NCBI GenBank assembly: GCA_017628775.1
Contig: JAGBYN010000051.1
Location: 1-5,104 of the forward strand
DNA from: Bacteroidaceae bacterium
GTDB lineage: Bacteria > Bacteroidota > Bacteroidia > Bacteroidales > Bacteroidaceae
Length of the DNA stretch: 5,104 bases
Direction of reading: 5' to 3'
In this document: positions 1,088-5,090 of the stretch, piece after piece
Layout: each line of letters opens with the position of its first letter
How positions within the stretch are numbered: the first letter of the stretch is position 1
Notes under the pieces: generated by a model
The model's input: the letters and a program-made list of their open reading frames with translations, nothing else
Told to the model about the DNA's origin: nothing
Database searches by the model: none
Program-made: the position numbers and the translations under genes

Positions 1088-1112
1088 ATTCTCCGTTTTT
1101 TTGAGGAGCATC

Positions 1113-1183
1113 GGCCTGAAGGTCCAGCAAGCACCCAGCCCAGGGCAAGCGAACAGCGTGAGAGACACCCTGGGTGTGATTCA
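1113..1183 (+). repeat. Hairpin repeat copy R1 (hairpins A and B; C missing)
   Basis: Hairpin A is GGCCTGAAGGTCC (1113-1125). Hairpin B is CCCAGGG (1139-1145) pairing with CCCTGGG (1168-1174) around a 22-nt loop. After hairpin B the sequence GTGATTCA (1176-1183) matches GTGATCCA in copy R4 (4840-4847) with one difference. Similarity then stops, and the hairpin C expected about 20 nt further on is absent because the reductase coding sequence begins. The copy therefore looks truncated at its right end by the junction with that gene. Confidence 0.8.
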
Positions 1184-2128
1184 ATCGTGGATTGCACCTA
1201 AACTATCAGCCAATTGCTCAACGGAACTGGCACCAACGATAACAGAGGTCACCCCTTCGTGGTCCAGCACCCAACGTAAGGCCATCTGCGCCAGGGTTTT
1301 TCCTCGTGCTGCGGCTTCTTCATTCAGCGCAGTCAAGTGTTGTTCTAACTCTGGAGTAAGCACTGAGGGTTGAAGCGAAGCTTCTTTGCGCATGCGTGAA
1401 TCCTGAGGAATGCCATTCAGATATCGATTGGTGAGTAAACCCTGTGCTAATGGTGAGAAAGAAACAAAACCGACGCCTGCATCATGAACGGCCTTGAGGA
1501 CGCCTGATGTCACCACCTCTTGATCAAGCATATTAAGGCGCCCCTGATAACACAGGCAACGCACATGATGTTCCTGTAAATATTTCAAGCCAAACAATGT
1601 GGCTTCAAGTGGCCAACGCGAAATGCCAACGTATAAAGCCTTGCCCATCTTCACAATGTCCACCAAAGCTTGTAAGGTTTCTTCAAGTGGGGTGAGCGGA
1701 TCATAACGATGGATATAGAACAGGTCAACGTAGGATAGGTTCATGCGTTTTAAACTTTGGTCCAAACTTGCCATGAGCGATTTCCTGGAGCCCCAATTTC
1801 CATATGGTCCGTTCCACATTTCATAACCAGCCTTTGTGGAAATGAAAAGTTCATCACGATAGGGGGCAAACGATGTTTTAATGATTTGTCCGAAACGCTC
1901 TTCTGCAGCTCCTGGAGGCGGTCCGTAATTGTTGGCTAAGTCAAAGTGCGTAATGCCATGGTCGAAGGCATAGTGCAATAACTCACGAGCTTGGGAACTG
2001 TCAGCTTTTTCGCCAAAGTTCTTCCATAAGCCAAGCGACACTTGAGGGAGCAGGATGCCGCTATTGCCGCAACGGCGGTAAAATGAGTCGTCGCAGTATC
2101 GTGTGGTTGAAGCGGTGTAGTTGTTCAT
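1181..2128 (-). CDS. YghZ-type aldo/keto reductase, C-terminally shortened
   Basis: The 315-residue product is a TIM-barrel NAD(P)H-dependent oxidoreductase close to E. coli YghZ (L-glyceraldehyde 3-phosphate reductase, AKR14). The family core is clear: RRCGNSG and SLGLWKNFG near the N-terminus, HFDLANNYGPPPG, STKAGYEMW, SLDQSLKRM, GKALYVGIS, SPLAQGLLT, NGIPQDSRM and VIVGASSVEQL. The catalytic tetrad is intact as D63, Y68, K99 and H140. The ATG at 2128 is chosen because it matches the family's N-terminus; the frame extends upstream only to a GTG at 2203. Two oddities stand out. The usual QPSYN or QPRYN motif, whose Tyr stacks on nicotinamide, reads QGRLN (195-199). The protein stops at GAIHD, about 30 residues before the family's usual end, with its TGA inside a hairpin repeat. 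It may be a decaying gene or an active variant. It appears monocistronic and converges on the surface-protein gene. Confidence 0.85.
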   Translation of the reverse strand: MNNYTASTTRYCDDSFYRRCGNSGILLPQVSLGLWKNFGEKADSSQARELLHYAFDHGITHFDLANNYGPPPGAAEERFGQIIKTSFAPYRDELFISTKAGYEMWNGPYGNWGSRKSLMASLDQSLKRMNLSYVDLFYIHRYDPLTPLEETLQALVDIVKMGKALYVGISRWPLEATLFGLKYLQEHHVRCLCYQGRLNMLDQEVVTSGVLKAVHDAGVGFVSFSPLAQGLLTNRYLNGIPQDSRMRKEASLQPSVLTPELEQHLTALNEEAAARGKTLAQMALRWVLDHEGVTSVIVGASSVEQLADSLGAIHD

Positions 2129-2264
2129 GATGAATGATTTATAGAGGTTTATGTCTGTACTTAAGCCGTAGCCAATCGTGAAAACCTGGTGGCCATGATT
2201 CACGACCTCTTCTACAGTCCAAAATACGGATCATATCAACGGAGTAAAAATCGTTTTAATGGGA

Positions 2265-2272
2265 CAAAGTTA
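2265..2272 (-). promoter_or_regulatory. Candidate -7 box for the aldo/keto reductase
   Basis: Read on the minus strand this is TAACTTTG, a full match to the Bacteroidota TAnnTTTG -7 element. No clear TTTG/TTG -33 box lies about 19-23 nt upstream, so the call is tentative. It would give a leader of roughly 130 nt before the ATG at 2128. The MITE-like element begins about 36 bp upstream of it. Confidence 0.45.
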
Positions 2273-2349
2273 AATAAATGTCATCATATAACCCCTTCTA
2301 TGGGTGTTAAAAAAGTTATTGCTGTCCGATAAAGTTATTGAGAAGTAAC

Positions 2350-2434
2350 GGCCTGAAAGGCCACTAAGCACCCAGCCCAGGGCAACGCCCTGGGTCTAAG
2401 GATATTTGGAGTTGCGCCCTGTAGGGGCAAAAGC
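2350..2434 (+). repeat. Hairpin repeat copy R2f (left arm, inside the MITE)
   Basis: This is a complete unit. Hairpin A is GGCCTGAAAGGCC (2350-2362). Hairpin B is the perfect short-loop form CCCAGGGCAACGCCCTGGG (2376-2394), an 8-bp stem with loop AAC. A spacer of about 20 nt follows, then hairpin C, GCCCTGTAGGGGC (2416-2428), followed by AAAAGC. The stems are supported by compensated differences between copies: for example hairpin C has GCCC/GGGC here and GCTCT/AGAGC in R3f. Confidence 0.85.
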
Positions 2435-2458
2435 ACTGAACCTAAAGTCCTTATCATT

Positions 2459-2544
2459 GCTTTTGCTCTTTCAGAGCGCAATTCTCGACTGCAACAACAC
2501 CCAGGGCGTTGCCCTGGGCTAATGGCTTTATCCCCTTTCAGGGG
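2459..2544 (-). repeat. Hairpin repeat copy R2r (right arm, inverted, inside the MITE)
   Basis: This is a complete unit in reverse orientation. Hairpin C with its AAAAGC tail occupies 2459-2480, hairpin B is CCCAGGGCGTTGCCCTGGG (2500-2518), the exact reverse complement of the left-arm hairpin B, and hairpin A is CCCCTTTCAGGGG (2532-2544). Together with R2f it makes a large imperfect palindrome whose centre (2435-2458) is unpaired AT-rich sequence. The arrangement is like a BIME, a head-to-head pair of REP-type units. Confidence 0.85.
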
Positions 2545-2635
2545 AATTATCCAAGTTGTGGGGCTTATACTAATCGCACAACTTTATATTCACAGAGTTA
2601 GAGGGGTTTACCGGACAGTAATATAAAAAAGTAAA

Positions 2636-2676
2636 TGGAAGTTCTGCTGGCTTCCATCGATCTACAGCTTCTGTAG
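2636..2676. other. Two small adjacent inverted repeats of unknown role
   Basis: TGGAAG (2636-2641) pairs with CTTCCA (2651-2656), and CTACAG (2662-2667) pairs with CTGTAG (2671-2676) across a 3-nt loop. No promoter or T-run marks this as a terminator or RNA gene. The rest of 2633-2760 shows no gene or other structure that I can support; it could be the remnant of a decayed sequence. Confidence 0.3.
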
Positions 2677-2760
2677 TTTCTATTCTCCCATAAAGCCGCA
2701 TGACAACCCATTTCAACTCGTTCGCTACGTCCCAACTTAAAATAAATTAACACGAAACAC

Positions 2761-2791
2761 TTTAGTGAAATAAAATAAAATTGTACATTTG
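2761..2791 (+). promoter_or_regulatory. Bacteroidota housekeeping promoter for the FKBP operon
   Basis: TACATTTG (2784-2791, followed by C) fully matches the TAnnTTTG -7 consensus. TTTA (2761-2764) sits 19 bp upstream and matches three of four bases of the TTTG -33 element. Transcription would start near 2796-2799 and give a leader of about 57 nt before the ATG at 2855. The leader ends in A-rich sequence without a Shine-Dalgarno motif, as is usual in Bacteroidota. Confidence 0.75.
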
Positions 2792-2795
2792 CCAC

Positions 2796-2821
2796 CGATT
2801 TTGCAAAAAATCGTCTTTTTT
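2796..2821 (+). promoter_or_regulatory. 5'-leader hairpin with GNRA loop and U-run (possible attenuator or 5' stabiliser)
   Basis: CGATTTT (2796-2802) pairs with AAAATCG (2807-2813) in a 7-bp stem closed by GCAA, a GNRA-type tetraloop. TCTTTTTT follows at 2814-2821. It lies at or next to the predicted transcription start of the FKBP operon. The shape is that of a weak intrinsic terminator. Only the two terminal C-G/G-C pairs are strong, so attenuation, mRNA protection and no function at all remain possible. Confidence 0.45.
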
Positions 2822-2854
2822 ACTGAAAATCATCGTTATAAACACAAATAAACA

Positions 2855-3442
2855 ATGGAAAAACTTTCTTACGCTTTAGGTATGATTATTGGTCATAACC
2901 TTAAAGGCATGAATATCGAAGGACTTAACACTCAGGAATTTGCACAGGCAGTGGCTGATGTGATTGATGGAAAAGAAACACGTTTGGGCGATATGGAAGC
3001 TCAAACACTCGTGCAAAAGTATATGCAGGAAAAGGAAGCTGAGCAAAGCAAGGCTCTTCGCGCTGAAGGCGAAGCATTCCTAGCAGAGAACGCCAAGAAG
3101 GATGATGTTGTGGTATTGCCCAGCGGTTTGCAGTACACTGTGCTTGCTGAAGGTAATGATAAGAAACCTTCTGCAACCGACAATGTGAAGTGCCACTACG
3201 AAGGACGCCTCATTAACGGCACAGTGTTCGACAGCAGTTACAAGCGTGGCGAACCCGCAGTATTCCCCTTGAACGGTGTAATCGCTGGTTGGACCGAAGG
3301 TGTTCAACTCATGGGCGAAGGTGCGAAGTTCCGCTTCTTCATCCCTTATCACCTTGCCTATGGTGAGCGTGGTGCAGGTCAAAGCATTCCTCCTTATGCA
3401 GCCCTCATCTTTGATGTTGAGTTGATCGAAGTTATGGCTTAG
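2855..3442 (+). CDS. Cytoplasmic FKBP-type peptidyl-prolyl cis-trans isomerase (FklB/FKBP22-like)
   Basis: The 195-residue protein catalyses cis-trans isomerisation of Xaa-Pro bonds and assists folding. No signal peptide is seen, so a cytoplasmic location is inferred. Residues 1-45 form an FKBP_N-type helical segment (SYALGMIIG..., then FAQAVADVIDGK), which dimerises such proteins in the FklB/Mip family. A charged helix follows at about 46-82 (QKYMQEKEAEQSKALRAEGEAF). Residues 88-193 are the FKBP domain with active-site residues matching FKBP12: Y115, F125-D126, F137, V142-I143, W146, Y169 and F186. The ATG at 2855 follows a typical A-rich leader. Length agrees with E. coli FklB (about 206 residues). 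The gene leads an operon with the FKBP lipoprotein 33 bp downstream. Confidence 0.95.
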   Translation: MEKLSYALGMIIGHNLKGMNIEGLNTQEFAQAVADVIDGKETRLGDMEAQTLVQKYMQEKEAEQSKALRAEGEAFLAENAKKDDVVVLPSGLQYTVLAEGNDKKPSATDNVKCHYEGRLINGTVFDSSYKRGEPAVFPLNGVIAGWTEGVQLMGEGAKFRFFIPYHLAYGERGAGQSIPPYAALIFDVELIEVMA

Positions 3443-4416: not shown

Positions 4417-4487
4417 GTTCAAGAACGGTTCAAGAACGGTTTGAGAACGGTTCGAGAAGTTCTGAGGAGTTCAAAGAGTTCTGAGGA
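4417..4487. repeat. Short tandem array, GTTC-led units of 9-11 bp
   Basis: Two exact 11-mers GTTCAAGAACG (4417-4427 and 4428-4438) are followed by GTTTGAGAACG (4439-4449). Four shorter units follow: GTTCGAGAA, GTTCTGAGGA, GTTCAAAGA and GTTCTGAGGA. The first units contain GTTC and its reverse complement GAAC two bases apart, so each is a tiny palindrome. The array occupies the gap between the operon terminator and the first hairpin repeat, as the heptamer array does at 1025-1087. Confidence 0.75.
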
Positions 4488-4495
4488 AAAAGGGC

Positions 4496-4598
4496 GGGCT
4501 GAAGGCCCAACCTGCTCCCAGCCCAGGGCAGAGCGAACGCAGTGAGCGACACCCTGGGTATACAGGCCGCATGGTTTCCGCTCTGTAAGAGCAAAAGC
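4496..4598 (+). repeat. Hairpin repeat copy R3f (left arm of a head-to-head pair)
   Basis: Hairpin A is GGGCTGAAGGCCC (4496-4508). Hairpin B is CCCAGGG (4522-4528) with CCCTGGG (4552-4558) around a 23-nt loop containing GCAGTGAGCGAC. Hairpin C is GCTCTGTAAGAGC (4580-4592), followed by AAAAGC. The 6 nt before hairpin A (AGGGCG region) are shared with copy R4. Confidence 0.85.
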
Positions 4599-4637
4599 AT
4601 TTCCGATTCGCCCAACTTTCGTAAAACAAAAGTTTTT

Positions 4638-4733
4638 GCCCATTCAGGGCGCCATCCGGGGTTGTCTTCAACCTAGGGTGCCGCTCGCTATGCTCGCTTG
4701 CCCTGGGCTGTTAGCTATTGCCCTCTTCGGGGC
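4638..4733 (-). repeat. Hairpin repeat copy R3r (right arm, inverted)
   Basis: In reverse orientation: hairpin C is GCCCATTCAGGGC (4638-4650). Hairpin B is CCTAGGG (4672-4678) with CCCTGGG (4701-4707), long-loop form, with one C-to-T change that still allows a wobble pair. Hairpin A is GCCC (4720-4723) with GGGC (4730-4733). With R3f it forms a second head-to-head pair like the one inside the MITE. No matching terminal repeats or target duplication were found around this pair. Confidence 0.8.
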
Positions 4734-4776
4734 GTTAACCATCCGGACTGCAAATCTGCTTTTTCCTTAAAAGGGC

Positions 4777-4878
4777 GGGCTGAAGGCCCAGTGAGCACCC
4801 AGCCCAGGGCAAGCGAGCGCAGTGAGCGACACCCTGGGTGTGATCCAGAGGATGAGTCCGCCCTGAATGGGCAAAAGC
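4777..4878 (+). repeat. Hairpin repeat copy R4 (complete single unit)
   Basis: Hairpin A is GGGCTGAAGGCCC (4777-4789), identical to R3f. Hairpin B is CCCAGGG (4803-4809) with CCCTGGG (4832-4838), long-loop form. A spacer follows beginning GTGATCCA, then hairpin C, GCCCTGAATGGGC (4860-4872), followed by AAAAGC. It is the best reference for the long-loop unit. The frame open across this region (4698-4883) is only a by-product of the repeat. Confidence 0.85.
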
Positions 4879-4884
4879 TTTAAA

Positions 4885-4920
4885 CCCAGGCTATGCGAAT
4901 GCTGTGAACTGCATTTAGCC
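4885..4920 (+). repeat. Decayed hairpin B remnant
   Basis: CCCAGG at 4885-4890 and the next 23 bases align without gaps to the R4 hairpin B left arm and loop at about 20 of 29 positions, including GCGA and GTGA. The right arm has decayed to TTAGCC. Between this and the next copy (4921-5028), nothing recognisable was found: an A-run after CCCCCC, then AT-rich sequence with no open frame of note. Confidence 0.45.
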
Positions 4921-5028
4921 AAGCGCCTCCCCCCAAAAAATAGCGGGCACCAATATTTGTATAATGTCTGAATCAGGAGTTAAATCCAGAGTATTTTATC
5001 GTCATTTAAGAACAAAGCCGAATGGTAC

Positions 5029-5090
5029 GCCCTGAAGGGGCATCAGCTATTAGCCCAGGGTAAGTGACCGTAGGGAACGGCACCCTGGGT
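5029..5090 (+). repeat. Hairpin repeat copy R5 (cut by the window end)
   Basis: Hairpin A is GCCCTGAAGGGGC (5029-5041). Hairpin B is CCCAGGG (5054-5060) with CCCTGGG (5083-5089) around a 22-nt loop that is more diverged than in R3f or R4. Any hairpin C would lie beyond the last base. Confidence 0.8.

Follow-up and report, generated by a model that had tools for sequence, protein, structure and literature searches.

A short IS4-type element of Bacteroidaceae that very probably carries a REP-like hairpin doublet as cargo

What kind of mobile DNA has the ends of an insertion sequence and, between them, hairpins of a type that also occurs outside it? The question is raised by a segment of a 5,104-nucleotide stretch of a Bacteroidaceae genome (contig JAGBYN010000051.1, assembly GCA_017628775.1), which at its full length is here called the window. 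A preliminary description of this DNA, made from the letters alone, had proposed a 307-bp element with 17-bp terminal repeats matching at 15 of 17 positions and abutted exactly by identical copies of TAAAAAAGT, and all of this was confirmed. The element occupies positions 2317-2623, its left end being identical at 15 of 17 positions to the complement of its right end, and a perfect 9-bp duplication lies directly against both ends (Table 1). We scanned the window for inverted 17-mers matching at 15 or more positions, spaced 150-1000 bp apart and with identical 9-mers outside them, and found this element alone; in 300 dinucleotide shuffles of the window there were 0 comparable structures. Terminal inverted repeats and a target duplication of fixed length (9 bp, also in those relatives that have one) are properties of MITEs, as is the lack of a transposase gene, the longest stop-free frame within the element being 89 codons.

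Table 1. Features of the element and its surroundings, in window coordinates
Feature	Position	Strand	Basis
Free REP-like unit outside the element	1098..1183	+	repeat families D2, D3 and D5; has the 5' spacer too
Aldo/keto reductase, flanking gene	1181..2128	-	divergent from the FKBP gene
Target duplication, left copy, TAAAAAAGT	2308..2316	.	sequence and shuffle scan
Left terminal inverted repeat, IS4-type, TATTGCTGTCCGATAAA	2317..2333	+	ends also on IS4-type elements
Spacer, left end to doublet	2334..2349	+	repeat family D2; kept in G359 copies
First REP-like unit	2350..2442	+	hairpins GGCCTGAAAGGCC 2350-2362, CCCAGCCCAGGGCAACGCCCTGGGT 2371-2395, CGCCCTGTAGGGGC 2415-2428
Second REP-like unit, inverted	2452..2544	-	hairpins GCTCTTTCAGAGC 2465-2477, ACCCAGGGCGTTGCCCTGGGCT 2499-2520, CCCCTTTCAGGGG 2532-2544
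Right arm	2545..2606	+	contains GGGGCTTA at 2560-2567
Right terminal inverted repeat, TATTACTGTCCGGTAAA as complement	2607..2623	-	end comparison
Target duplication, right copy, TAAAAAAGT	2624..2632	.	sequence and shuffle scan
FKBP-type prolyl isomerase, flanking gene	2855..3442	+	divergent from the reductase gene
Free REP-like array, some units inverted (BIME-like)	4481..5090	.	repeat comparison

The interior was said to be a head-to-head pair of hairpin units and not a shrunken transposase, and our comparison agrees, finding a REP-like doublet in its place. Two units of three hairpins each face one another, with arms that are 82% complementary at 2352-2395/2499-2542 and 81% at 2409-2439/2454-2484. 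The DNA folding energy of the element is -76 kcal/mol, against a mean of -39 for shuffled sequences (z = -9.55). As had been noted, the unit is not confined to the element; further examples lie at 1112-1183 and 4481-5090, and a stretch resembling the spacer of the left end precedes the free hairpin at 1098 as well. Dispersed palindromes in inverted pairs are what defines REPs and BIMEs in part; the conserved GT[AG]G foot of REPs was not found in 11 doublets, which is why the term REP-like is used here and the doublets are not counted among the REPs proper. An alignment of twelve doublets, MITE-borne and free ones mixed, contains two-sided changes with pairing kept at 14 of the 58 predicted pairs, most clearly in the outer hairpins. 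A search of Rfam returned three matches, all under the gathering score and none within the element, which we judged to be chance matches of shape.

The element lies between divergent genes, one for an aldo/keto reductase and the other for an FKBP isomerase. On both sides there are putative promoter-like TAnnTTTG boxes, read by eye at 2265-2272 (- strand) and 2784-2791 (+ strand). Placed between divergent promoters, the element could putatively alter supercoiling or insulate transcription. Elsewhere in the window, positions 1-930 encode a protein containing Listeria-Bacteroides repeats, and a 183-bp sequence is present there in two copies, 94% identical, at the window start; short direct repeats of the GTTCAAGAACG type with 11-bp spacing (4417-4458) follow just past the terminator-like hairpin of a second FKBP gene, and the REP-like array at 4481-5090 is likewise downstream of that gene. 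Among the 80 loci listed, the reductase is matched at up to 70% by Prevotellaceae and their relatives. The nearest genome found, G359, matches the first FKBP gene at 79% and the second at 72%, and we infer that the window belongs to the same genus, which as used here comprises 58 genomes, among them G018 (Prevotellamassilia timonensis, the genome of locus L020).

The 17-bp end, allowing at most one mismatch, was found in 109 of 201 family genomes; its reversed control, present in 21 of them at no more than two matches per genome, shows that some of the single matches are due to chance. The preliminary description had suggested a search for full-length insertion sequences with the same ends, and such elements, of IS4 type, do exist in the genus. 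One of them, L121, is 1441 bp long, has the ends of the window element and encodes a transposase of 411 aa that combines a DUF4372 with a DDE_Tnp_1 domain and that the NCBI model NF033592 assigns to the IS4 family. Relatives of this transposase, often fragmentary and in some cases distant, are present in 22 of the 58 genus genomes, so that an autonomous insertion sequence with equal ends is available at the level of the genus. Among 14 IS4-type copies of 1298-1468 bp, perfect 9-bp duplications flank L317, L318 and L327 and one of 10 bp flanks L330; the remaining ten, L121 included, lack a duplication where one would be expected, for which recombination between copies could be a putative cause. 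Since both the ends and the 9-bp duplication are common to the IS4-type insertion sequences of the genus, the window element is to be classed as an IS4-type MITE. In L121 and L178 the motif GGGGCTTA of the right arm also directly follows the stop codon of the transposase gene, a hint that the arm might contain a remnant of an IS 3' end; the motif occurs 63 times on both strands of the 1.56 Mb of fetched DNA. In G018, IS4-type ends also surround another long palindrome, at L137 (2493-2851), with the perfect 9-bp duplication ATTTACTAA, and at L138 (425-675), with a duplication matching at 7 of 9 positions.

Copies of the element occur at other sites. Two in G359 can be aligned to it along its entire 307 bp with no gap, at 87.9% and 87.6%, compared with 79% and 72% for the two FKBP genes, and the flanks of these copies differ from those of the window. 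One of the two, L164, lies within a perfect duplication, ATTTAATTT, unlike that of the window; the other full-length copy is without one. Seven places in G359 match over more than 200 bp (71-89%), one at a contig end and several with decayed ends, and shorter matches sit at the ends of other contigs. In the 57 remaining genomes of the genus, the matches listed (the best seven candidates or fewer per genome) did not cover the full element. Thirteen doublet-bearing elements have perfect 9-bp duplications, namely that of the window, L164, L158 (G327), L170 (G364), L154 (G391) and eight of the 17 full-length doublets of G101. The 9-mer of L170 is identical to that of the window, with the element in reversed orientation. 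At L160, L131, L157, L156, L166 and L172 no duplication was present at the expected place. A group of shortened relatives (L162, L166, L157, L168 and L165) lack much of the doublet, as if by deletion between hairpin arms.

In G101 the element takes two forms, of 349 bp and of 368 bp; the longer one has an additional end beyond the first, and in both the duplications lie outside the outermost end. The form of about 368 bp comprises L353, L354, L355, L360 and L363, the second IS end standing 19 bp beyond the first; because four of these five have a perfect duplication outside the outer end, either end can serve. For the nine full-length doublets of G101 other than the eight with perfect duplications, the repeats match at 8 of 9 positions (L364), 7 of 9 (L365) or 6 of 9 (L366), L353 has an 8-base repeat and L358 none, and in L352, L361, L367 and L368 a credible second end was not found. 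Seven of the 349-bp cores differ from an eighth by 0-3 bases (one 348-bp core was left out), and this near-identity indicates recent movement. Both G359 and G101 contain multiple copies at unrelated sites, as MITEs do, and judged by these comparisons of sequence the element is mobile. An orthologous empty site was not found among the fetched loci compared with the window flanks, none of which keeps the reductase-FKBP junction. Genus searches with window positions 1900-2950 (best seven candidates or fewer per genome) and with a G101 copy and its flanks (best five) likewise found the neighbouring gene in most genomes and the junction in none.

We then searched 399 family genomes for the exact pattern of an IS4-type end, at most 60 bases, and the outer hairpin. 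Other loci combining ends and hairpin pair, which the preliminary description had proposed to look for, appeared as 38 matches in eight genomes, against 0 for the reversed control: 21 in G101, seven in G364, three each in G327 and G359, and one each in G003, G282, G360 and G391. The G282 match has a weak end only. That in G360 has no 17-bp end nearby and looks like chance. Of the two results that the preliminary description had named as refuting it, empty sites with other breakpoints and a lack of further loci joining the ends to the pair, neither appeared, no empty site of any kind having been found. With the doublet in the opposite orientation beside the end, the exact pattern occurred in 0 of the 399 genomes; the sole opposite-orientation element seen, L131 of G018, has variant ends that escape the exact pattern, is without a duplication and, if it is a capture at all, is a separate one. 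The left end is close to the doublet in most lineages, the junction measuring 16 bases in the window and G359, a few in G101, G364, G327 and G003, and about 20 in G391 and G282. Capture between IS4 ends probably happened more than once. Viral contigs gave 0 matches, and in one plasmid record and four phage records the match covers the doublet part only.

Doublets of the same design are also found free, without IS ends, elsewhere in the genus. For each doublet we asked if an IS4-type end with at most three mismatches lay within 130 bp of it. No such end adjoins any of 20 doublet regions in G437, G375, G294 and G414, hand-chosen from the listing of the genus search, and one adjoins 1 of 17 regions in G018, a few of which had been fetched for an already known end. 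In G101, by contrast, all 17 full-length doublets have at least one IS4-type end beside them and 12 have both; the query there was derived from a MITE, yet it also recovered copies at 72% identity, and the count leaves out the shorter pieces, which make up 10 of 27 places examined and several of which have no pair of ends. The difference between 17 of 17 in G101 and 0 of 20 and 1 of 17 elsewhere argues that IS4 ends came to enclose doublets by capture and that these doublets afterwards spread as cargo. The preliminary description had offered spread as the cargo of a MITE and capture of hairpin pairs between IS ends as alternatives; at the level of sequence both are supported, capture coming first and spread as MITE cargo after it.

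Beyond what had been described before, the hairpin unit itself is a REP-like repeat tied to a clade of Y1 transposases. Y1_Tnp genes are present in 28 of the 58 genus genomes, and the analysis covered 30 of the 42 places listed. At six of these 30 loci the Y1 gene is flanked by doublet units (26 blocks in 95 kb), as it is by its repeats in REP/BIME systems, versus one of 28 IS4-transposase loci (a single block over 92 kb) and 0 of 14 control loci around a different gene (52 kb; four of them from the six genomes concerned). In a tree of 23 Y1 proteins the six lie on one side of one branch, with 0 of 500 label shuffles as low; the branch has a modest support of 57/83, recurs in 59% of bootstraps and concerns six loci. 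The six proteins have DH[VI]H and WQ motifs and, in five of them, Y...Q..HH, the frame of L272 breaking before that motif, and 17 other Y1 proteins of the genus that share the Y..Q..H motif have no such doublets nearby. Five of the six ORFs have the signature of Y1 subclass 1.2 (PMC6006769), an assignment made by motif and not by placement on the tree of that paper. Two doublet-flanked proteins scored 24.3 and 23.7 bits with the RAYT model NF047646, and L267, a Y1 protein of G101, scored 20.2, all below the cut-off of 80; with the IS200 model the values were 48.2, 48.7 and 53.8, for a cut-off of 55. A sequence search of the PDB with one Y1 protein gave 0 matches. In L265, L266 and L274 the REP-like units extend into the Y1 stop-to-stop frame upstream of the likely MAQSL start, and would encode an N-terminal extension only if translation began earlier. 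G101 has two Y1 genes, L267 with no doublet near it and another about 7 kb from the nearest listed doublet match. Subclass 1.2 is generally without typical terminal structures according to PMC6006769, whose table states 'no'. TIRtrons (PMC3733652), in which a Y1 gene lies between long inverted repeats that have no relation to GTAG REPs, are the nearest described kind to our Y1-doublet loci.

Taken together, these data make it very probable that the element is a non-autonomous IS4-type MITE whose REP-like doublet was captured as cargo between IS4 ends and has since multiplied. The doublet itself appears to be part of another mobility system, that of a Y1 (HUH) transposase clade. Doublets would have been generated and dispersed by a Y1 enzyme, their presumed original mover, and one would then have ended up between two IS4 ends, by Y1-mediated insertion near an end or by an IS deletion beside a doublet. 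A DUF4372/DDE_Tnp_1 transposase would recognise the 17-bp ends in trans and move the element to A/T-rich sites, leaving a 9-bp duplication and giving identical junctions at many sites. That IS4-type machinery moved the packaged doublet is strongly supported by the sequence comparisons, and its action in trans appears probable. No L121-type transposase was found in G359, a fragmented assembly, or in G101; PF01609 genes of G101, G364 and G327 are without a flanking pair of these ends, and a PF01609 match was not found in G359. Against this reading stand these absences in G359 and G101, the lack of an empty site, the IS4-type copies and doublet-bearing elements without a duplication, the modest support of the Y1 branch, the 17 Y1 proteins without doublets and the missing GT[AG]G foot.

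Could the ends have met an ordinary hairpin repeat by chance? An A-rich target, and the identical 9-mer at the copy in G364, would suit such an accident, but the 0 of 300 shuffles and the same ends with other duplications at other loci refute it, and we give it practically no weight. A different possibility is that cargo-free MITEs spread first and that Y1-mediated doublets were inserted separately at each site. Doublets do exist outside MITEs, and identical ends bound elements with other palindromes (L137 and L138); independent insertions would scatter, however, and the copies at different sites share their junctions, through 307 colinear bases in the window and G359 and in the near-identical G101 cores. 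Nested insertion is contradicted as the route of spread and is improbable as a general account, and may be the founding event in each lineage. Slightly less probable still is gene conversion between free doublets and MITE interiors. It would fit the G359 copies, whose doublet parts are 98.0% alike as against 85.3% for the first 34 bases and 93.0% for the right parts, but new sites with duplications are left unaccounted for.

The alternative to which we give the most credit, while considering it unlikely, makes the doublet a working part of the MITE, aiding transposition or shielding it from transcription, and not a passenger. Several genomes have doublet-bearing forms, each with the same outer hairpin towards the left end (38 against 0 opposite), G018 elements with these ends carry other long palindromes, and pairing is kept by the two-sided changes; these changes include free doublets, so the pairing is not specific to MITEs. 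IS4-type elements, moreover, move without a doublet, and copies with a partial doublet exist, one of them (L162) with a duplication matching at 8 of 9 positions.

A broader reading, to which we assign even chances, goes beyond the captured-cargo element itself: REP-like doublets made and formerly moved by a Y1 enzyme of the little-known subclass 1.2 may have changed vehicle and, in some lineages, now travel between IS4 ends, with a DDE transposase spreading them. This would be seen most clearly in G101, with its 17 full-length doublets by IS4-type ends and its two Y1 genes without an adjoining doublet. Such packaging offers a concrete route by which REP-type repeats could spread without a dedicated transposase, each jump being marked by a duplication; CGTC REPs apparently have none, according to the abstract of PMC3733652. 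Among related genomes some have free doublets and others packaged ones of a like design, and a Y1 subclass described as generally without terminal structures becomes tied to a repeat family, so that its activity can be tested.

Searches of the open-licence literature turned up no description of IS4-type MITEs with REP doublets packaged inside. With MITEs derived from the IS4 family the window element shares its 17-bp ends, its 9-bp duplication, its multiple copies and the lack of a transposase gene, but its interior is a REP-like doublet and not the product of a deletion in a transposase gene. Dispersed palindromes, inverted pairs, arrays and clustering at a Y1 gene recall REPs, BIMEs and REPINs with their RAYTs, as REPtrons are presented in the accessible part of PMC6006769; unlike those REPs, the doublets have three hairpins per unit and no GT[AG]G foot, and the Y1 proteins resemble subclass 1.2, whose entry in the table there has no such structures. 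TIRtrons, with their TIRYT genes, are similar in joining Y1 genes to long non-GTAG-REP repeats, some in dimers or clusters, and packaging between the ends of another IS family goes unmentioned in the available text of PMC3733652. BrickBuilt of Porphyromonas gingivalis, going by the extract of PMC4596501, is also a Bacteroidota MITE with a repeat interior that is not a transposase remnant, although its interior is a tandem minisatellite, its ends are ISPg1/ISPg9-like and its duplications vary in length. QMITE2 of Coxiella burnetii, as outlined in part of a review (PMC10969869), is a MITE containing a REP-type palindrome; there the REP is a target for IS1111, whereas here the doublet is packaged between IS4 ends.
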